DNA of 7,641 bases from Acidobacteriaceae bacterium (GTDB taxonomy: Bacteria > Acidobacteriota > Terriglobia > Terriglobales > Acidobacteriaceae): the NCBI GenBank assembly GCA_009781125.1, contig WQYS01000105.1:1-7641 (forward strand). Reading direction: 5' to 3'. This document shows, in pieces, positions 1 to 7,641 of the stretch (the first letter of the stretch is position 1; each line of letters begins with the position of its first letter). Below the pieces are notes generated by a model. It worked only from the letters and a program-made list of their open reading frames with translations, did no database searches and was not told the origin of the DNA. The position numbers were made by a program, and so were the translations under genes.

Positions 1-1
1 G

Positions 2-157
2 ACCGGCGCTCAGGAGTATGTTTTCAACGCGGCAGGGCAGCGGGTTTCGGTGTGGGACGGCTCGACCGGCGCGCAGCTACAGGGGCAGTACTACTGGGGC
101 GGGACTCCGGTGGCGTACTACGACACGAGCAGCCTGCACTTCCAGCATCAGGACTGG
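2..157 (+). pseudogene. RHS/YD-repeat protein fragment, cut off at both ends
   Basis: Frame 2 reads from the window edge as TGAQEYVFNAAGQRVSVWDG, then ...YYWGGTPVAYYD... and ...HFQHQDW. This is the style of the C-terminal part of RHS/YD-repeat proteins: a YD-type repeat followed by the FQHQDW core segment, which in acidobacterial members normally continues as LGTER-like sequence. RHS proteins are large secreted or surface shells that often carry a toxin tip. Here the similarity stops at the Trp codon 155-157. The frame stays open to a stop at 677-679, but the added ~170 residues are arginine-rich and are simply the antisense of the neighbouring NHL gene, so they are not a real RHS tip. The 5' part lies outside the window. 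I call it a broken gene remnant; a chimeric assembly join would look identical. RHS identity is recognised from memory of the family, not from a search. Confidence 0.72.
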
Positions 158-2089
158 CGGCAACTGGCTGTCATAAAGCGACCATGTATACGTTGCGCTC
201 GGATACGCCTCATCCGTCGCTGTCAACTGTTGCGACCATGGAGTTCCATTCGCAACCGTCCAGCCGTCTACGTCCGGCGTAATCACAGGCGTCGGCAAAA
301 TCCCCATACCGCTCAGCGAGATGAACTGGGCTCCATTCGGGGCATTACCGGTCAGGATGGCGTTATCGCTAAGCAAGCCCGTCGTCGTCGGAGCAAAGTC
401 GATCGCCACGTCGCAAGTCGCGCCAGGAGCCAGCGTCGACGCCGTTTCTCCGGCAGTTGCCTGCGGACATGTGCTACTGCTGTCCCATGCGAAGTACTCG
501 GGAACGAACGGATTCGTTCCAGAACCCGGGACGGAGATGGTCCAATCACTGGTACCGATATTCTCCAACCCTACATAGGACGGCACGCTGTTGCTTTGGC
601 TGGTCGAACCAATCAGCGTGTCCGGAAATGTCAGCTCAGCCGATGTGGCGCGCGCGATCTCTTTTATCGATTGGGCTAGTGACACGCCCGAACTGTTGTT
701 ATAGCCGCCAGTAAAATAGATGTTCCCGCTGCTATCCAACGCAAGGCCAGCAGGGGTCGCCAAAGGCGTATTAAACACTATATTTACACATCCGGTATTG
801 TTTGCATTGATACAACTGACCGGTATCTCCTCCACCCCATTGCTGCCGCTAAAGTAGACGCTCCCACTGGCATCCACTGCGATATCGTTGCCGTATACTG
901 TACCTAGCAGCTTTACACAAGTTGAGTCATTAGCGCCGTTGATACAATCAGCCGGTATCTCTTTCACCATACCGGTATCCACCGTGCTGGTATGATCGGC
1001 GACATAGACGTTTCCATATCCGTCTACTGCTATGCCGTAGGGAATGGTAAATCCGCCGCCTAGTGTTTTTACGCAGCTAAGGTCATTTGTGCCATTGATA
1101 CAATCGATCGGTACCTCGAACACCCCAAGGCGACCAGAAGGTGCCGCTCCTGTAAAATAGACGTTACCGCTGCCGTCCACAGCTACATGTACGGGGATGT
1201 TCTCACCATAACCACCAATAGGTACGACACATGCGGCGGTGTTTGCACCGTTAATACAGTTAACCGGAATCTCATGCAACCCAAGACCGTAGGGCGACCC
1301 ATTCAACGAGCCTGCAACAAAGACATTACCGGCTCCATCTACTGCTATGCCAAGGGGACGGCCCCAGGCGCCGCCCTGGTATCCACCGCCCAGCTGTTTC
1401 ATGCAAGTGATGGTCCCTACGCCGACTACTGCGCCGGTATAAACGCGGTCTGCGCTACATGAGGCTGGAATCTCGACCACCGTGCCGGTATCTGTGATGC
1501 CATTAGTATCATTTAATGAATCAATCGTATCGAGTATCGTAGCAAAGATGTTACCGGCACCATCTACTGCCAATCCATGCGTATTGCCCATTCCGCCCAA
1601 CCCATCTGCTAACAACTTCGTCGTCGTATTGCTAAACACCACCTGCGGACCGGTTCCGATACCCTGAATGTACGCCGTTGCAATAACATTACCGTCCGTG
1701 TCCGCCAGCACTACCGCGCCTTTGCGCGCTCCGGCATACAGTGGCGTGAGGGTAACATTCACCGTGCAGGTATCGCCCGTACTGTAGGTGCCTGCCGCGC
1801 AACTGCCGCCACCAGCGTCAGCGTAGTCCAGATTCGGGGCGCCCATAGTCAGAATCTGCGGAGCTCCGATAGTTCCCCCTGCAAGGAACTTAAACGTCGC
1901 TGCTTGAGGGACCGATGTCGTCCCTATCGGAACAGGGCCGAAATCCACCGTATTGTAGGCCTGCGCCGTCTGCGCCGAAGTTGATCTACTTAACACAAAT
2001 GTTAGTAACACAAGCGACGAAAACACCACAAAGTTTCTGACAAAAACGTTGCATACACAATTGAATCTCGAAAAATCTTGTGCGAACAT
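77..2089 (-). CDS. Secreted NHL-repeat protein with flanking ASH-like domains, 3'-truncated
   Basis: 670 residues from ATG 2089, chosen because GGAG lies 6 nt upstream and a signal peptide follows (hydrophobic stretch near residues 19-34, cleavage around STSA|QTA); the longer ATG at 2170 has no ribosome-binding site. Residues ~47-150 form a choice-of-anchor-D/ASH-like beta domain. Residues 171-462 hold six NHL repeats of the form G(I/L)AVDGxGNVY, predicted to build a beta-propeller. Residues ~485-597 form a second ASH-like domain, and ~600-645 start a putative-Ig domain ending TWSLYDSQLPP. All 14 mature cysteines fall into close pairs (97/108, 211/229, 278/287, 330/339, 382/391, 426/434, 541/559), which fits an exported, disulfide-stabilised protein. 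Residues 646-670 are the antisense of the RHS fragment, so the native C terminus is missing. The role is unknown; NHL propellers usually bind proteins, polymers or ligands. It may be independently transcribed, since 198 nt separate it from the upstream cluster. Confidence 0.85.
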   Translation of the reverse strand: MFAQDFSRFNCVCNVFVRNFVVFSSLVLLTFVLSRSTSAQTAQAYNTVDFGPVPIGTTSVPQAATFKFLAGGTIGAPQILTMGAPNLDYADAGGGSCAAGTYSTGDTCTVNVTLTPLYAGARKGAVVLADTDGNVIATAYIQGIGTGPQVVFSNTTTKLLADGLGGMGNTHGLAVDGAGNIFATILDTIDSLNDTNGITDTGTVVEIPASCSADRVYTGAVVGVGTITCMKQLGGGYQGGAWGRPLGIAVDGAGNVFVAGSLNGSPYGLGLHEIPVNCINGANTAACVVPIGGYGENIPVHVAVDGSGNVYFTGAAPSGRLGVFEVPIDCINGTNDLSCVKTLGGGFTIPYGIAVDGYGNVYVADHTSTVDTGMVKEIPADCINGANDSTCVKLLGTVYGNDIAVDASGSVYFSGSNGVEEIPVSCINANNTGCVNIVFNTPLATPAGLALDSSGNIYFTGGYNNSSGVSLAQSIKEIARATSAELTFPDTLIGSTSQSNSVPSYVGLENIGTSDWTISVPGSGTNPFVPEYFAWDSSSTCPQATAGETASTLAPGATCDVAIDFAPTTTGLLSDNAILTGNAPNGAQFISLSGMGILPTPVITPDVDGWTVANGTPWSQQLTATDEAYPSATYTWSLYDSQLPPVLMLEVQAARVVVRHRSPAPVVLPL
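704..1579 (-). repeat. Six degenerate NHL repeat units
   Basis: Within the NHL gene, units start with (G/A)xAVDGxGN(V/I)(Y/F) at residues 171, 246, 299, 351, 402 and 447. From the second unit on, the period is about 45-53 residues. Between units lies a conserved clasp, EIPxxCINGxNxxxCVK followed by a glycine run, visible in DNA as recurring ttgataca(a)...ccggtatctc copies (for example near 806, 940, 1096 and 1252 on the plus strand). These are diverged coding repeats, not a DNA-level array. Confidence 0.8.
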
Positions 2090-2095
2090 GTATTT

Positions 2096-2099
2096 CTCC
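2096..2099 (-). promoter_or_regulatory. Ribosome-binding site of the NHL gene
   Basis: GGAG on the minus strand, 6 nt before ATG 2089. It decides the start against the in-frame ATG at 2170, which would add 27 residues ahead of the signal peptide and has no purine-rich stretch before it. Confidence 0.7.
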
Positions 2100-2185
2100 A
2101 AGTACACAGCTGCACTGAAATGTATTGAATCGATCATTGCCCGGAAGAACAGGGAAGCACTACCATCCATAGCAGCGATCTCGGG

Positions 2186-2214
2186 ATAAAATCATCCATT
2201 ACAACTTACTCCAA
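2186..2214 (-). promoter_or_regulatory. Weak sigma-70-like promoter candidate for the NHL gene
   Basis: On the minus strand TTGGAG (2214-2209) and TTTTAT (2191-2186) are 17 nt apart, each matching four of six consensus positions. Initiation would fall near 2179, leaving a leader of about 90 nt. The rest of the 2090-2287 gap shows no gene, no strong hairpin and no T-run, so neither a terminator for the upstream cluster nor another element was found there. The match could be chance. Confidence 0.25.
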
Positions 2215-2287
2215 CGAGGTTTCATGCCTTCTTATGACAGACCTTATATCGTCATCTGCAACACGGCCTGAGACATGACTCCTGCTA

Positions 2288-2800
2288 TCAAAATGTTTCG
2301 ACCGTGATCCGTAATGTCGCCTGGAAAATAACTCCTGGCTGTATCGGCACGGTAGCATCTCTCAGGTTGACATAAATCGGCACGGAGATGGAGGTTGCAC
2401 CTGCAGGGCGCAGAACTACATTGTTGGCGATCGTAGCGCCGCAACCGTTGTTGGCCGGAGGAACGGCAGAGTTGAAAGGAACCGTCTCCCCTCCATTCAC
2501 CCGGGCTTCCACTATAGAAGCTGGAACGCCCGATGCCTCGCCTGAAGCAGGAGACAAGCCGCAGAACTGCGGAAAATCTGCATACACGGTGGCTCGTGTC
2601 GGGCAGGCATGCGCGCCAGGCACGCAACTTATGTTGATCTGTAGTATGCCCGCCGGGGAAAGCGTTCCCTGCCTCATATTAAAGCGCAGCGAGGAAGAGG
2701 TCGAAACGGTCATTGTCTGTGAATGTAACGGACGCCCTCCCCACGCCAGGGCAAAGGCGATCAGAAGCAAAACAAGCCGTCGTAGTTTTTTCATTCTCAT
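2288..2800 (-). CDS. Small secreted four-cysteine protein, likely minor or tip fimbrial subunit
   Basis: 170 residues from ATG 2800, supported by AGGA 8 nt upstream; the longer in-frame ATG at 2881 would overlap the previous gene by 77 nt and place charged sequence before the signal. Residues 1-28 are a signal peptide (MRMKKLRR, hydrophobic LVLLLIAFALAW, cleavage near LHS|Q). The mature part is Gly/Ala/Val/Thr-rich and beta-like, with four cysteines at 59, 66, 80 and 120, enough for two disulfides, and ends in the alternating strand FQATLRITVETF. Such a terminal strand and size recall spore-coat-U/Csu-type and other fimbrial subunits, but no diagnostic motif is visible. It starts only 4 nt after the stop of the outer-membrane barrel gene, so the two are almost certainly co-transcribed. 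As the last gene of a subunit-chaperone-barrel set it would be the tip or anchor subunit; that role is inferred from context. Confidence 0.8.
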   Translation of the reverse strand: MRMKKLRRLVLLLIAFALAWGGRPLHSQTMTVSTSSSLRFNMRQGTLSPAGILQINISCVPGAHACPTRATVYADFPQFCGLSPASGEASGVPASIVEARVNGGETVPFNSAVPPANNGCGATIANNVVLRPAGATSISVPIYVNLRDATVPIQPGVIFQATLRITVETF

Positions 2801-2804
2801 GGCG

Positions 2805-4712
2805 TCATTCCTGGCCGGAGGTTCCGGCGGAACTGGTATTGGATGCAGGTGTCGCAGGCGTATAAGGCGTATACGCTCCATACGTCACCGCGTCCGGCGG
2901 CGTAGTGCTGGTCGTGGAAGCAGGCGCTGGTTGTGAGTTCTTCGCCTGTCCTCCACCGATGGTTTGCAGATGCTTTTTGTAGAGTTGCGCCGCGCCATGC
3001 TTGGCACTGATCAGTTGCACAACGATCGTGATGCCAGGATCATCGCCCTGTACCGATTCCACGGTAGATGGAGCGCTCACCACCTCATAGCTCGCAACGT
3101 TTGTAGACAGAGACGGAACAACGGTAATCTGATGGCGCCTTTGCTTCTTTTCCCAAGCTTCAAAGTTCCCACTGAGGTCCGAATAGACAATAGCCTTGTC
3201 GATCATGATCGCTATCCCCTGCACGGACTCATTGTCGGGCGTGACGACATGGCCGCGAACAGCAAAGTCGCCAATGTTAATCGCCGGACGGTCCCCTGCA
3301 AAGTCTGAAGCGTAGGAGCTGTAGCCGGCGCTCCACATGTAGTAGCCAAGCCCGTAGGGATCGATGCTCTTGGAGAAGCTGGCGTTGAATCTTCGAGTTA
3401 TTTTTACCGATCCATTAAAGGAGTAGTTGGGCTGGAAGGGTCTGGCAATATTCGTGGGAATATAGGTCGTGTTGTAGTCCACCCCGGCGCTGAAACGGTT
3501 GGTAAAGTAAGAACCTCCAAAGGTTATAAAAGAGCTCTGGTTGGTATGCACGTAAGTTTCTTTTAAGTTCAGTTGCGGCCTGATTCGTTCCGTCAGAAAA
3601 ACCGTGCCCATCTTCTGATCCGGAGCCTGCCTGCTATGGGATATGCTGTAGTTCGCCCCCATCGACACGTAGCGTGTAATACCTCGGCCTACAGAGACTG
3701 ACTCTCCGTGGGACTTGTAGCCCTGATATTGGGAGTCATAGTAAGTGCCGGAAAGACTTGCTTTCAGAAGAAAGAGCGTAACTCCGCCCACATCGGTTGT
3801 ATTGATGTTCCCTAGTTGACCGGCATTCACATACCGATTGGGAAAGACGAGCATATTCTGCCGCGAGCCGTGAATTTTCAGAAATCGAAAAGGATAGTAA
3901 CTGAGTTGCGCATTTTCTTTTATCGCCTCGCCATACTGCATGTCGGGAAGGTTCAACAGCGGGGTAGAAGTTTTTGGGTAGCTGACATACTCCGCGCGCA
4001 GATCGAAGCTATGCCGTCTCAGGCGTGCGCTGACGGCTCCATAACGGTAATGCATGCCGACAAGGCCGCCGGAAGCAGCCAGCGTCACATAGTTGCGGCT
4101 ATTGTTCCGTTTGGAACTCCATTCCAGACCTTGCAGCAGGGTCGATCGCCGGGATATCAGCAGATGCGTCGTGTACTTCCAGTTGTTCTTTTCTCCAGTT
4201 ATCCCATGAAAGGCAAGCAGTCCGGCTGCCTGCCGGGGCTGGGCGCCGATAAAGAACTGGCTCTGGAGATTATCCGAAATTCCTCCTATATAGAGATGAA
4301 CGTCGGTCCTGTTATCCGGCAACACGCTATCAACGCCCAGGCCGGTAATAAAAACACTTCGTCCACCCATAAAAATATCCGTAGGCATATAGATGGTTTG
4401 GTCCGAGTCGCCCAGGCTATAGACGGTTTTCCGCACTGAATGATAGGCGATGCCTCCAAAGGCGAACTTATTGAAGACCGAGCCCCCACCAAGCGCTATG
4501 CTATAGTTTTTCGCCTGCATGGCGACCCATCCGCCGCTGGTCTGGGAGAACGTGGAAGCTCCGCCGTCTACGGTATACACGATCTGCGCGTGAGCTACGG
4601 AAACGAAAAGAAAAACAACCGTGCAGAACATCAGCGCCAATAATGACGAAAGAATATAATTCCAATTCTTTGGCGCTACACCCGTATTCCTGGCGTCGTT
4701 TTTCCTAACCAT
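2805..4712 (-). CDS. Outer-membrane beta-barrel, usher-like, with C-terminal beta-sandwich domain
   Basis: 635 residues from ATG 4712, with AGGA 6 nt upstream. Residues 1-42 form a long signal peptide (basic start, hydrophobic NYILSSLLALMFCTVVFLFV, cleavage AHA|Q). Residues ~60-475 are dense in alternating polar/aromatic strands and turns (FAFGGIAYHS, LSGTYYDSQYQGYKSHG, VSMGANYSISHS, FSAGVDYNTTYIP, MWSAGYSSYASD), typical of an outer-membrane barrel. Residues ~482-568 read FAVRGHVVTPDNESVQGI...SDLSGNF, like the carboxypeptidase-regulatory/CNA-B sandwich fold that also resembles usher C-terminal domains. Residues ~590-635 are a Pro/Ser/Thr-rich tail. Canonical ushers are about 800 residues or more, with an N-terminal periplasmic domain and a plug; neither is evident here. 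The gene lies 45 nt after the PapD-like chaperone gene and just before a putative subunit, so I infer secretion and assembly of subunits across the outer membrane. A porin or adhesin is the alternative. Confidence 0.82.
   Translation of the reverse strand: MVRKNDARNTGVAPKNWNYILSSLLALMFCTVVFLFVSVAHAQIVYTVDGGASTFSQTSGGWVAMQAKNYSIALGGGSVFNKFAFGGIAYHSVRKTVYSLGDSDQTIYMPTDIFMGGRSVFITGLGVDSVLPDNRTDVHLYIGGISDNLQSQFFIGAQPRQAAGLLAFHGITGEKNNWKYTTHLLISRRSTLLQGLEWSSKRNNSRNYVTLAASGGLVGMHYRYGAVSARLRRHSFDLRAEYVSYPKTSTPLLNLPDMQYGEAIKENAQLSYYPFRFLKIHGSRQNMLVFPNRYVNAGQLGNINTTDVGGVTLFLLKASLSGTYYDSQYQGYKSHGESVSVGRGITRYVSMGANYSISHSRQAPDQKMGTVFLTERIRPQLNLKETYVHTNQSSFITFGGSYFTNRFSAGVDYNTTYIPTNIARPFQPNYSFNGSVKITRRFNASFSKSIDPYGLGYYMWSAGYSSYASDFAGDRPAINIGDFAVRGHVVTPDNESVQGIAIMIDKAIVYSDLSGNFEAWEKKQRRHQITVVPSLSTNVASYEVVSAPSTVESVQGDDPGITIVVQLISAKHGAAQLYKKHLQTIGGGQAKNSQPAPASTTSTTPPDAVTYGAYTPYTPATPASNTSSAGTSGQE
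2809..2812 (-). promoter_or_regulatory. Ribosome-binding site of the four-cysteine subunit gene
   Basis: AGGA on the minus strand, 8 nt before ATG 2800 and 14 nt before the alternative ATG 2794. It lies inside the last codons of the preceding gene, consistent with translational coupling. Confidence 0.6.
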
Positions 4713-4718
4713 CTCTCT

Positions 4719-4722
4719 TCCT
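4719..4722 (-). promoter_or_regulatory. Ribosome-binding site of the outer-membrane barrel gene
   Basis: AGGA followed by AGAGAG and then ATG 4712, a 6-nt spacer. It lies in the 45-nt gap after the chaperone stop codon; that gap shows no hairpin, so read-through transcription is expected. Confidence 0.6.
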
Positions 4723-4757
4723 AACTTGGTTGGTAGCCACTAAGAGTTATGCGATGC

Positions 4758-5567
4758 TTATGGCTTCTGCGCTGATGCAGGCGGCGAGTGAGAGACGGTT
4801 GAACGGCCCGGAGATGCAGTAGTTGAGCCTGAGACAACGGCAGGCTCGCCTGGTTGCACGGATACAGGACTGGATAGCTTGAAACGTGGAAACTCTACAA
4901 GGATTGACGTGGGAATTTTGTCCTTCAGAACATCCACCAGGCTGAGGTCGAAGTATGTCGCCGTGGTTGTATGCGGAAATACCGGAAGAAGTCTCATCCG
5001 GAACTGGTTGTCATGAAGCTGAGGGAAACTCAAAAATGGACGCGACAGCTTACCGCCGCGATTTTCCATCGTGATCTTCAACTTATGCGTCACAGGATCG
5101 AAGACCGCCTCATGAATGGCCACTTCGCCTTGTGTGACACCTTCTTTCTGGTACATGTAAACCGGGTGGCCGAGTTGCATGCCAACATTAAGGCCGTCGC
5201 GATGTTCTGCCTGCTGAAAGGCGGCATAGATCATGAACCATGCAGGATAGGAGTCCGCCGAGGCATCAAAGAAAATATGGACACTGTCTTTGGGAGCAAT
5301 GCGTACGCCGCTCTTGGAGAACTTGACATGAATGTGCGGGCTCAACCCGGAAGGAGCAACCTGTTTATCGCCGCTGACTGCAAAATCCATTGCCTGCAAG
5401 GTCACAGACATAGGACTGAGTGAGTCGTTCGTAAGCGTAAGATCGCCTTTTCCTCCTCCTGTAAACACCGAGGACACAGGCGAAATTGTCTGGGATGCGG
5501 AAAAGACGCTCCCTCCAAAAACCAGTAGCAGAGCCGCTATCATTCCTTGAACATACTTATTCTTCAC
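4758..5567 (-). CDS. PapD-like periplasmic fimbrial chaperone
   Basis: 269 residues from GTG 5567, preferred because GAGGA stands 8 nt upstream and KNKYVQG then gives the basic head of a signal peptide (hydrophobic MIAALLLVFGG, cleavage near FSA|SQ); ATG 5612 would include the ribosome-binding site in the coding part. Residues ~27-120 look like the first PapD immunoglobulin domain: ISPVSSVFTGGGKGDLTLTN, then SPMSVTLQAMDF, then SKSGVRIAPKDSVHIFF and WFMIYAAF. Residues ~128-232 match the second domain in outline, with HKLKITMENRGGKLSRP as the central strand pair. Such chaperones bind unfolded subunits in the periplasm and deliver them to the usher. The classical Arg of strand A1 (as in a TRVI-type motif) is not apparent, and a Ser/Pro/Thr-rich tail of about 35 residues follows domain 2; both are unusual. 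The pilin-like gene lies upstream and the barrel gene downstream, which supports the role. Confidence 0.8.
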   Translation of the reverse strand: MKNKYVQGMIAALLLVFGGSVFSASQTISPVSSVFTGGGKGDLTLTNDSLSPMSVTLQAMDFAVSGDKQVAPSGLSPHIHVKFSKSGVRIAPKDSVHIFFDASADSYPAWFMIYAAFQQAEHRDGLNVGMQLGHPVYMYQKEGVTQGEVAIHEAVFDPVTHKLKITMENRGGKLSRPFLSFPQLHDNQFRMRLLPVFPHTTTATYFDLSLVDVLKDKIPTSILVEFPRFKLSSPVSVQPGEPAVVSGSTTASPGRSTVSHSPPASAQKP

Positions 5568-5575
5568 GTAACACT

Positions 5576-5580
5576 TCCTC
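5576..5580 (-). promoter_or_regulatory. Ribosome-binding site fixing a GTG start for the chaperone
   Basis: GAGGA on the minus strand, 8 nt before GTG 5567. The internal ATG at 5543 would remove the basic head of the signal peptide, so GTG is the best start. Confidence 0.62.
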
Positions 5581-5668
5581 GTCGTTGGTATCCCGCATCG
5601 AATCTGAACCACTACTGCCAGTTACTTCCCTGTTCCAGGCTCAACATCATTTCCTGCTGCTGGTAATT

Positions 5669-5699
5669 CTCTCTGCGGGAGTACCTCTCCCGCAGAGAG
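5669..5699 (-). promoter_or_regulatory. Perfect 13-bp intercistronic hairpin
   Basis: Arms 5669-5681 (CTCTCTGCGGGAG) and 5687-5699 (CTCCCGCAGAGAG) are exact reverse complements around a 5-nt loop. The hairpin lies 34 nt after the pilin-like stop codon and about 100 nt before the chaperone start. No T-run follows on the minus strand (AATTACCAGC), so it is not a textbook intrinsic terminator. It could attenuate transcription or block 3' exonucleases, favouring the subunit mRNA over the downstream genes, as known for pap-type pilus operons. The function is inferred; the structure is seen directly. Nothing else notable lies in the 5568-5733 gap. Confidence 0.75.
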
Positions 5700-5733
5700 C
5701 TTCAAGGCAAAACAAGTTACCGTCAACAAGGAA

Positions 5734-6417
5734 TTAGAGAGCGGTCGCCGTAACCCAGAGCGTGCCCTGGTAGGTAAACGCTCCAGATATAGGAGCAATC
5801 AACTGATCCGAGTCGTCGATGTAGAGGTTCATGTTATAGCTGACCGTGCCCGAAATACCGCCATCCTGGCTGCCGGTGGTGACGGGAACTTCGTACATCG
5901 GAACGCCATTGGCCAGCATGGCCGCGGTTACGTTCGCGTCGGGAACTAAGAAGTTCGTGGCGGAGCCATCAAACCTTACCTCAGAGCCACCGTCGAGCTT
6001 GCCGATGATTCTATCGGTAGTGATGACATTGCCGGAGCCATCATTGGACGTCAGGGCAGTGTCGCTAAGAAAATACGCCGTAACCGCGATATTGGTGTAG
6101 CCGGTGGCATTGGCGTTCGAGAGCACCCAGCTGGTGGTGGCGGTCAAAGGCTGGTTGCCCTGGTTGTACTTCTGCCCATTGGCGATCACAAAGCTGATCT
6201 CGTTGGGAATGATGAGCGTCAGACCTTCAACCTTGGTAGCTACCAGCGTGGTGTAACCCTGGACCGTACAATCGCTCGCAGTGCCTGCGGCCGGGGCTGC
6301 GGTGGTACACTCCTTCGACCAGGGAGTGGTTCCGCCGGTCGGCAGCAGGGGCGTCTGAGCAAAGGCTACGGTCGACAGAACAACTATGCCAATCAATGCA
6401 ATCAGTACTTTCTTCAT
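5734..6417 (-). CDS. Secreted pilin-like major subunit (putative)
   Basis: 227 residues from ATG 6417, with AGGAG 9 nt upstream. Residues 1-20 are a textbook signal peptide, MKKVLIALIGIVVLSTVAFA, cut before Gln21. The mature protein of about 207 residues has only two cysteines (37 and 50), close enough for one disulfide near the N terminus, many Thr/Gly/Asn/Ser, and strand-like alternations, ending in a beta strand, FTYQGTLWVTATAL. These traits match fimbrial or coat-type subunits in general; I recognise no named family. It is the first gene of the set, followed by the chaperone, the barrel and the four-cysteine protein, the place the main structural subunit usually holds. The hairpin directly after it fits high subunit expression. 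The role as a fibre subunit is inferred from context and composition; a stand-alone secreted beta protein cannot be ruled out. Confidence 0.8.
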   Translation of the reverse strand: MKKVLIALIGIVVLSTVAFAQTPLLPTGGTTPWSKECTTAAPAAGTASDCTVQGYTTLVATKVEGLTLIIPNEISFVIANGQKYNQGNQPLTATTSWVLSNANATGYTNIAVTAYFLSDTALTSNDGSGNVITTDRIIGKLDGGSEVRFDGSATNFLVPDANVTAAMLANGVPMYEVPVTTGSQDGGISGTVSYNMNLYIDDSDQLIAPISGAFTYQGTLWVTATAL

Positions 6418-6426
6418 AAATCAAAT

Positions 6427-6431
6427 CTCCT
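6427..6431 (-). promoter_or_regulatory. Ribosome-binding site of the pilin-like gene
   Basis: AGGAG on the minus strand with a 9-nt A/T-rich spacer to ATG 6417, the longest Shine-Dalgarno match in the cluster along with the chaperone's, in line with strong translation of a structural subunit. Confidence 0.65.
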
Positions 6432-6456
6432 GTTACTCTGTTGAGGTTAGAAGTTT

Positions 6457-6483
6457 GCGTTGCGTGAACTACGCTCGCAACGC
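6457..6483. promoter_or_regulatory. Inverted repeat in the leader of the pilin-like gene
   Basis: GCGTTGCG (6457-6464) and CGCAACGC (6476-6483) are exact reverse complements around 11 nt, ending 39 nt upstream of ATG 6417. It could be an operator or a leader hairpin. A second, shorter repeat, GCGGAA/TTCCGC with a 4-nt loop, sits at 6537-6552. No convincing -35/-10 pair was found in 6418-6605, so the cluster promoter remains unlocated. Confidence 0.4.
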
Positions 6484-6586
6484 GCTATCACTCGTCCTGG
6501 CATTGCAATCGCCAGTGCGAGTATTCCTCCCTACATGCGGAACGATTTCCGCCGCAGGAGAATACCTGAAAACCCTCCGGCACCCC

Positions 6587-6604
6587 GCCCGTGCCTCCAC
6601 GGGC
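6587..6604 (-). terminator. Possible terminator hairpin after the Ig-repeat gene
   Basis: GCCCGTG/CACGGGC, a 7-bp GC-rich stem with a 4-nt loop, begins one base after the TAA of the Ig-repeat gene. The following minus-strand sequence is GGGGTGCCGGAGGGTTTTC, so the only T-run is short and about 14 nt away. It may mark the 3' end of that transcript but is weak as an intrinsic terminator. Confidence 0.35.
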
Positions 6605-6605
6605 A

Positions 6606-7640
6606 TTACTGTGCCTTGACGGTCAACGACACAGTCTTCGTCACCGTGCTGTAGTCCGTCGTGTCCGCCGGCGTAAACGTCACGCTCAACGTCTGCGCTC
6701 CCGATGCATTCATCACCGTGCCCGCCGCCGGGGTATAGATGAACGTGCCATCTACATTGGCTGCCGCGTTCAACTGTGTCCCATCCAACACCGTCCCGGC
6801 TGTCACCGCCGCAGGCGTAGCCCACGTCACTACCGGAATTGCCTTGTTCACCGTCAGACCCATCACCTTCGTCACCGTGCTGTAGCTGGTTGGGTCGTCC
6901 GGCGTGAACGTCAGAGTGATTCTCTGGCTTCCCGCCGCGAACACCGTCCCCACCCCCGGCAAGTAGCTGAACGTGCCCGGTACATTGGCCGTCGCGCTCA
7001 ACTGCGTTGCGCTCAACGCCGTCCCATAAGTGATCGCCGCGGGTGCTACCCACGTTACTACCGGCGTCGTCACCGTCTTCGCCTTCACCGTCAGCGACAC
7101 CGACTTCGTCACGGTGTTGTAGGTGGCCGTGTCCGTCGGCGTAAACGTCACGCTCAGCGTCTGCGTTCCCACCGTACTCATCACCGTGCCTGCCGCGGGC
7201 ATGTAGGAGAACGTCCCCGCTACATTAGCAGTCGCGTTCAATTGCGTTGCGCTCAGCGCCGTTCCTGCCGTGATCGCCGCAGGCACGGCCCATGTAATCA
7301 CAGGGTCCGTCTTCCCGCCGTTGACGGCCACCGACACGGTCTTGGTCGCCGCGTTATAGTCCGTCGCGTCCGCCGGCGTAAACGTCACGCTCAACGTCTG
7401 CGCGCCCGACGTGTTCATCACCGTGCCCGCCGCCGGTGTATAGACGAACGTGCCGTCTACATTGGCCGTCGCGTTCAACTGCGTCGCGTCCAAAGCTGTA
7501 CCGGCTGTCATCGCCGCGGGCGCTGCCCACGTCACCACCGGCGCAGCCTTGTTCACCGTCAACCCCATCAGCTTCGTCACTGTGCTGTAGGTGGCCTGGT
7601 CCGTTGGCGTAAACGTCAGGTTCAGCCGTTGGCTCCCCGC
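6606..7640 (-). CDS. Ig-like repeat surface protein, C-terminal part
   Basis: The frame ends in TAA at 6608-6606 and stays open to the window edge, where it still reads repeat sequence (AGSQRLNLTFTPTDQATYST), so the start lies outside and the Met at 7580 is internal. At least 345 residues are visible: one partial and four full Ig-like domains of 76-80 residues. Each follows the plan (P)VVTWxxPAA(I/V)TxGTxLxxTQLNATANVxGTFxYxPxxGTV, then TLSVTFTPxDxxxYxxVTKxVxLTV. This resembles the bacterial Ig-like repeats (Big_3_5 type) seen in large secreted acidobacterial proteins. There are no cysteines, no transmembrane segment and no sorting motif; the protein simply stops after the last domain (LTVKAQ). 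It is probably the stalk of an extracellular protein or adhesin; the functional head would be upstream. It is 188 nt from the pilin-like gene on the same strand; a functional link is possible but unproven. Confidence 0.85.
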   Translation of the reverse strand, partial: AGSQRLNLTFTPTDQATYSTVTKLMGLTVNKAAPVVTWAAPAAMTAGTALDATQLNATANVDGTFVYTPAAGTVMNTSGAQTLSVTFTPADATDYNAATKTVSVAVNGGKTDPVITWAVPAAITAGTALSATQLNATANVAGTFSYMPAAGTVMSTVGTQTLSVTFTPTDTATYNTVTKSVSLTVKAKTVTTPVVTWVAPAAITYGTALSATQLSATANVPGTFSYLPGVGTVFAAGSQRITLTFTPDDPTSYSTVTKVMGLTVNKAIPVVTWATPAAVTAGTVLDGTQLNAAANVDGTFIYTPAAGTVMNASGAQTLSVTFTPADTTDYSTVTKTVSLTVKAQ

Positions 7641-7641
7641 C
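6609..7641 (-). repeat. Tandem Ig-domain repeats in a 705-bp higher-order unit
   Basis: Domain starts (PVVTW/PVITW) lie at 7541, 7304, 7064 and 6836, giving lengths of 237, 240 and 228 bp. The fourth domain is closest to the first (VDGTF...YTPAAGTVMN.SGAQTLSVTFTPAD in both), and the partial domain at the edge matches the third (AGSQR...LTFTP...MGLTVNKA). The like pairs are offset by exactly 705 bp, for example cacgctcaacgtctgcg at 6681 and 7386. Confidence 0.8.

Follow-up and report, generated by a model that had tools for sequence, protein, structure and literature searches.

The DNA analysed here, referred to as the window, is a stretch of 7,641 nt from an Acidobacteriaceae bacterium (assembly GCA_009781125.1, contig WQYS01000105.1, positions 1-7,641, forward strand) and carries four genes of a candidate chaperone-usher-like system. 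An earlier note on the same DNA had described four co-oriented open reading frames (ORFs); all four were found where it had placed them, on the minus strand, and its values of 166, 45 and 4 nt for the intergenic gaps are correct. The genes are listed below together with a hairpin.

6417-5734, minus strand: S1, 227 aa; exported beta-rich subunit, presumed major fibre subunit
5567-4758, minus strand: chaperone, 269 aa; PapD-type two-domain periplasmic chaperone with a Ser/Pro-rich C-terminal tail
4712-2805, minus strand: barrel, 635 aa; usher-like outer-membrane barrel with a CarboxypepD_reg-like C-terminal domain and a Pro-rich tail
2800-2288, minus strand: S2, 170 aa with 4 Cys; second subunit, presumed tip or minor subunit
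5669-5699, minus strand: perfect hairpin of 13 bp between S1 and chaperone, with a presumed influence on S1 mRNA levels

The order S1-chaperone-barrel is found in 30/30 barrel-bearing loci, the best 30 of 41 genomes with family barrels, and a recognisable S2 lies downstream of the barrel in 23 of them. Among the seven loci lacking S2, two (L072 and L074) carry a small exported protein of other sequence in its place, and the other five have, by eye, only unrelated-looking genes within ~1.5 kb. At each of 12 places with a chaperone, one of them the window, a barrel comes next, and a subunit hidden Markov model (HMM) finds S1 in 11 (not in L018) and S2 in six; six genomes of the 30 barrel loci are already among these 12 places. 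S2 was not found by the HMM in the further loci L001, L002, L018, L021 and L022, the last of which is cut by a contig end. The expectation of the earlier note that homologues keep their neighbours was borne out for S1 and chaperone throughout the 30 loci and for S2 in 23, and the four-gene order it wished to see surveyed recurs in other Acidobacteriota as S1-chaperone-barrel, with S2 in most loci. A subunit HMM built from 14 relatives, with the window left out, matches S1 of the window (E 8e-7), and the four-gene pattern is therefore more than chance. The S1-chaperone gap is at most 63 nt in 24 of 30 relatives; in the window it spans 5568-5733, with a predicted RNA fold of -64.5 kcal/mol (z -5.03) that none of 200 shuffles equalled in stability. 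The hairpin at 5669-5699 is absent from the output of a terminator scan; lying behind the first subunit gene, it could raise S1 levels.

No Pfam or NCBIfam family was found in the chaperone or barrel of the window at E up to 1, and S1 and S2 gave only sub-threshold matches. The AlphaFold2 model of the chaperone has a predicted local distance difference test score (pLDDT) of 87.3 over 248 residues, and its nine best PDB matches in Foldseek are CsuC and CfaA pilus-chaperone chains, with CsuC at the top; CsuC, CfaA and Caf1M are among the Foldseek and VIA matches. The two-domain structural match spans residues 1-217 and is led by chaperone-usher chaperones, and chains of CEP192, WxLIP and ciliary proteins are also among the matches. 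The 4758-5567 product is hence predicted to fold as a PapD-type domain pair, a point on which the earlier note had staked its reading. Comparison of the chaperone family with known chaperones by hhalign gives a probability of 97 (20 shuffles, at most 1.24), and a second alignment pair gives 95.7. The Pfam model PapD_N (PF00345) matched none of 30 family chaperones at E up to 0.1, and PDB sequence searches with a single chaperone and then with its profile returned chance matches only. The Ser/Pro-rich tail of the chaperone ends in QKP.

Five columns are invariant in 62 family chaperones, namely P108, W110, N169, R176 and P198 in the 269-aa numbering (P101, W103, N162, R169 and P191 in the 262-residue piece used for alignment). 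The invariant Pro-x-Trp formed by P108 and W110 is typical of family chaperones, and their commonest G1-strand pattern is V-R-I-x-L-P-H-T-V-Y-L-Y. The classical Arg/Lys basic pair of domain 1 is absent by eye, the columns aligned with what are presumably its positions in PapD/FimC holding mostly Ile/Val/Ser and Val. PMC4654587 numbers this pair for Caf1M. Comparison with EcpB, whose numbering was checked against PMC4654587 at five residues, was read by eye from a profile alignment of ~10% identity, so that single columns may shift; the five commonest residues were examined in 11 columns around each site. Arg89 of strand F1, which PMC4654587 singles out as the most characteristic feature of chaperones of the archaic and alternative kinds, is aligned with a Trp in 62/62 sequences, and no conserved Arg occurs in the 11 surrounding columns, where Arg appears once. 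For the strand D1 Pro, described there as invariant across the chaperone-usher chaperone superfamily, none of the 11 columns surrounding the aligned position has Pro as one of its five commonest residues, although the register may shift. The Arg of domain 2 (Arg174 in CsuC, Arg148 in EcpB) does have an Arg opposite it in 62/62 sequences, R176. The domain-2 Tyr (Tyr196 in CsuC, Tyr169 in EcpB) is aligned with Pro in 48, Ile in 9 and Leu in 5 of the 62, and the preceding column holds Phe in 55 and Tyr in 3. Judged from sequence, the chaperone appears to lack the known subunit-anchoring residues except for one domain-2 Arg.

The eleven best PDB matches (Foldseek ranks 1-11) of the barrel model, which is poor (pLDDT 56), are FimD/PapC ushers, and these align from its first to its last strand with a lower root-mean-square deviation (rmsd) than other matches. 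Porins and siderophore receptors also match this model. The pore of an usher is 24-stranded, and the same poor model has 24 strands in residues 45-437, followed by two weak ones. A plug is not seen in it, the loop between strands 6 and 7, presumably the position of the plug in FimD, being five residues long. PMC3960871 describes FimD/PapC ushers as proteins of five domains: besides the pore, they have a plug, a recruitment domain at the N-terminus and a pair of C-terminal domains. The N-terminal domain is not seen in the family barrel, where strands begin shortly after the signal peptide, and there is one C-terminal domain, which is carboxypeptidase-regulatory-like and is matched by PF13620 in 18 of 20 family barrels. 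In the PDB, this domain matches one of SusC (E 3.8e-4); CarboxypepD_reg-like domains (PF13620, PF13715) are N-terminal in SusC, whereas that of the family follows the barrel. Core lengths in 30 relatives are 510-538 residues. The Pro/Thr/Ser-rich tail of the barrel (window 2805-2990) has a motif like YGxYxPYxP that is kept in the close relatives P0001-P0005.

Neither the barrel of the window, searched at E up to 1, nor any of 20 family barrels, searched at E up to 0.1, matches Pfam Usher (PF00577), and one of the 20 has a weak CooC_C match (E 0.063). PDB searches with a single barrel and then with a profile gave chance matches, or SusC for the C-terminal domain. An hhalign probability of 99 between barrel and ushers, obtained from an untrimmed alignment, was rejected as an artefact, ten shuffled controls and one reversed control having given 98. 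A trimmed alignment gives 62, against 6 for the reversed control and up to 0.2 for five shuffles, and the barrel part alone from 43 sequences gives 17, against 4 reversed. Values are 0.11-1.51 for 14 single ushers and 0.09-0.38 for LptD, FepA, OmpF, FadL, BtuB and BamA of E. coli. Sequence homology of the barrel to ushers is accordingly not claimed. On whether the barrel falls in another known barrel family, as the earlier note had considered, the poor model matches ushers best in structure, and the sequence gives no clear verdict.

The S1 family is homologous to the S2 family (hhalign probability 100, reversed 0.46), with the caveat that both were collected by one HMM built from both. At E 1e-3 the subunit HMM misses S2 of the window; compared with the subunit profile by hhalign, this S2 reaches a probability of 91 over 169 columns (reversed 0.63). 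Signal peptides of S1 and S2 were read by eye from the sequence. The description of S2 as a small Cys-rich protein agrees with its 4 Cys in the window, and any Cys beyond the first 25 residues is present in 12/23 S2 and 7/36 S1, window S1 counted. The C-terminal strand of S1, YQGTLWVTATAL, resembles that of its relatives, and a strict C-terminal-strand pattern is present in 23/36 S1 and 12/23 S2 (one S2 being cut by a contig end). Likeness to archaic-type subunits is confined to this strand (PAGTYTGTLTLQAQAL vs PAGSYSDTVLVTITF), and hhalign against such subunits is weak, S1 reaching a probability of 37 and S2 one of 14, with shuffles at 0.43 or less. Among 19 family subunits, Pfam gives one weak match to SEF14_adhesin (E 0.012) and none to the SCPU family. 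A PDB search with the subunit profile gave weak Nup98 matches only, which were taken as chance.

A first round of protein searches returned 8 barrels and 7 chaperones, including the window's own chaperone (P0009), and a profile search with 18 chaperones listed 29, a count that includes those found earlier and P0009. The closest relatives with a named source come from an Acidobacteriaceae metagenome-assembled genome (MAG). FWD64 locus tags, which belong to one Acidobacteriaceae MAG, are shared by several first-round relatives, and the family thus has paralogous copies. A first contig scan with the barrel alignment confirmed 0/26 stretches, and a scan with the chaperone confirmed 2/139. L001, from an Acidobacteriaceae lichen MAG, and L002, from a Candidatus Eisenbacteria MAG, both have subunit, chaperone and barrel in order. 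In Acidobacteriota, the phylum of L001, the chaperone is found in 7/396 genomes (E up to 1e-3), and the same seven carry the barrel (E up to 1e-10). In the phylum of L002, the chaperone is found in 3/47 genomes, each time followed by a barrel, so that a single mis-binned contig cannot account for the second phylum. A survey of 298 genomes from the order to which carrier G372 belongs gave matches to the barrel profile in 58. The barrel is full length in 39 of these, among which G509 is counted despite a stop inside its match, and in pieces in two; the other 17 match through the C-terminal domain alone and were left out of the count. The first pass of these surveys scored at most 6, 4 or 3 candidates per genome (4 in the 298-genome survey), so that misses are possible. 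The family is common within one order of the Acidobacteriota at least, and it is not confined to this phylum, a second one carrying it too. No match was found in a plasmid collection for the two barrels searched.

Several further features were observed around these loci. The lichen MAG contains a second, more distant chaperone-barrel pair (L018, G001 contig 111), which is preceded by a 182-aa exported protein unmatched by the subunit HMM and whose chaperone group (P0017, P0024-P0036) is without the LPHTVYLY-type G1 motif. In three genomes, an exported protein of 341-378 aa with a C-terminus like the VHL beta-domain adjoins the operon:

L012, 9630-10766: VHL-like exported protein, adjoining the operon
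L013, 5539-6627: VHL-like exported protein, adjoining the operon
L014, 8888-9913: VHL-like exported protein, adjoining the operon

The VHL match passes the cut-off in L013 (E 1.2e-5) and fails it in the others (0.0028 and 0.012); the proteins of L012 and L014 are 41% identical, and the protein may be accessory or unrelated. On both sides of the window's operon lie genes for repeat proteins: at 2170-77 one with a beta-propeller (SBBP), and at 6606-7641 one made of Ig-like repeats. The latter has CFAP65- and ASH-type Pfam matches and, by eye, repeats of ~80 residues each, and is incomplete, leaving the right edge. Positions 1-180 of the plus strand resemble, by eye, the end of an RHS-type repeat protein (no Pfam match in 60 aa). 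This end lies antisense to the last residues of the beta-propeller ORF, an overlap that is possibly a recombination or assembly junction.

PF00577 ushers occur in 10/396 Acidobacteriota genomes and in none of the seven carriers; mutual exclusion is nevertheless not a rule, as one of 33 further carriers (G511) has both. A canonical usher was found in 1/43 carriers tested, again G511, at a place other than that of the family barrel, and PapD_N in 0/10 carrier genomes; Pfam searches for ushers and PapD therefore miss the family. Ten canonical loci were retrieved. Several of them combine subunits that look SCPU-like by eye with chaperone and usher in a similar order, one having an extra subunit inserted between the last two. 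Across the ten loci, the usher is a single ORF of 761-1032 residues in nine loci and split in two in one, compared with the 510-538 residues of the family core.

The family shares with archaic pili (sigma; Csu of Acinetobacter, CupE) the subunit-chaperone-usher-subunit order, a PapD-type two-domain chaperone, the domain-2 Arg and a similar subunit C-terminal strand. It differs from them in a chaperone with an invariant PxW in place of Arg89 and superfamily-wide Pro equivalents, in a short barrel core without N-terminal domain or plug, and in subunits that are not SCPU by Pfam. From alternative pili (alpha; ECP, CFA/I) it differs by the lack of equivalents of EcpB Arg89, Pro60 and Tyr169 and by the missing usher domains. 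Classical pili (type 1, P) provide the best structural matches of the poor barrel model, FimD/PapC, whereas the Arg/Lys anchor pair is absent from the family and the N-terminal domain, plug and second C-terminal domain are not seen. The claim of the earlier note that the proteins are too divergent for a named clade holds for Pfam: with a limit of E 0.1, none of 30 chaperones or 20 barrels shows a main PapD or usher family, the weak matches being those to CooC_C and SEF14_adhesin. No published account of such a family was seen among the titles and abstracts of the literature matches listed, subscription papers being mostly outside that coverage. On the best reading, what is new here is an unnamed, reduced chaperone-usher-like lineage unrecognised by standard Pfam models, its fibres being inferred.

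The four genes are most likely a reduced, divergent chaperone-usher-like operon for fibre assembly, and the predicted chaperone fold and conserved neighbours support the similar reading of the earlier note. In such a system, S1 and S2 would be exported to the periplasm, where the PapD-type chaperone would hold each subunit by lending its own G1 strand, with the subunit C-terminus seated in the interdomain cleft near the invariant domain-2 Arg and the invariant Trp. The complex would be delivered to the ~24-strand barrel, serving as assembly platform and pore. With neither a plug nor an N-terminal recruitment domain seen in the barrel, its single C-terminal periplasmic domain would probably carry out both recruitment and handover. 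Donor-strand exchange would then join S1 subunits into a surface fibre, in which S2 would be the tip or a minor component. There is about an even chance that the family is a fourth branch of the superfamily beside the classical, alternative and archaic ones, in which a plugless usher without N-terminal domain has one carboxypeptidase-regulatory-like C-terminal domain running the whole cycle, and in which the subunit carboxylate is seated by the domain-2 Arg and Trp and not by the known Arg-based anchors. Such a system could descend from a simpler ancestral machine.

A less probable, though serious, alternative is that the family, rather than being a separate lineage, belongs to the archaic clade but has diverged far and shed usher domains. 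The gene order seen in canonical systems of Acidobacteriota, CsuC as top match of the chaperone, the invariant Arg facing the domain-2 Arg of archaic and alternative chaperones, and the subunit C-terminal strand are all consistent with this. However, the Arg characteristic of archaic and alternative chaperones is aligned with an invariant Trp and the superfamily-wide Pro is absent (both sites as given in PMC4654587), and PF00577 misses the family barrel yet matches canonical ushers of the same phylum. It is rather improbable that the chaperone-like protein and subunits are real but that convergent recruitment supplied their barrel from an unrelated outer-membrane channel, which might for instance secrete or anchor S1 and S2 as surface proteins and not fibres. 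Such a channel would fit the lack of a clear barrel-usher sequence signal, the matches to porins and siderophore receptors and the unseen N-terminal domain and plug, but ushers hold Foldseek ranks 1-11 with first-to-last-strand alignment and lower rmsd, and the barrel, usher-like only, is strictly linked to S1 and a PapD-type chaperone in 30/30 loci. A role other than fibre assembly, with Ig-like proteins acting in a surface layer or elsewhere in the envelope, is very unlikely: PapD-like folds do exist in other proteins, as the CEP192, WxLIP and ciliary matches indicate, yet the match over residues 1-217 is headed by chaperone-usher chaperones, and two subunit genes with alternating C-terminal strands lie beside a large barrel.

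Because Pfam models miss the family, surface fibres of Acidobacteriota are probably under-counted. A system that occurs naturally in dozens of genomes with one C-terminal domain and with neither the N-terminal domain nor the plug of ushers would reveal which parts are essential, and such a minimal machine would make subunit handover and pore gating testable.

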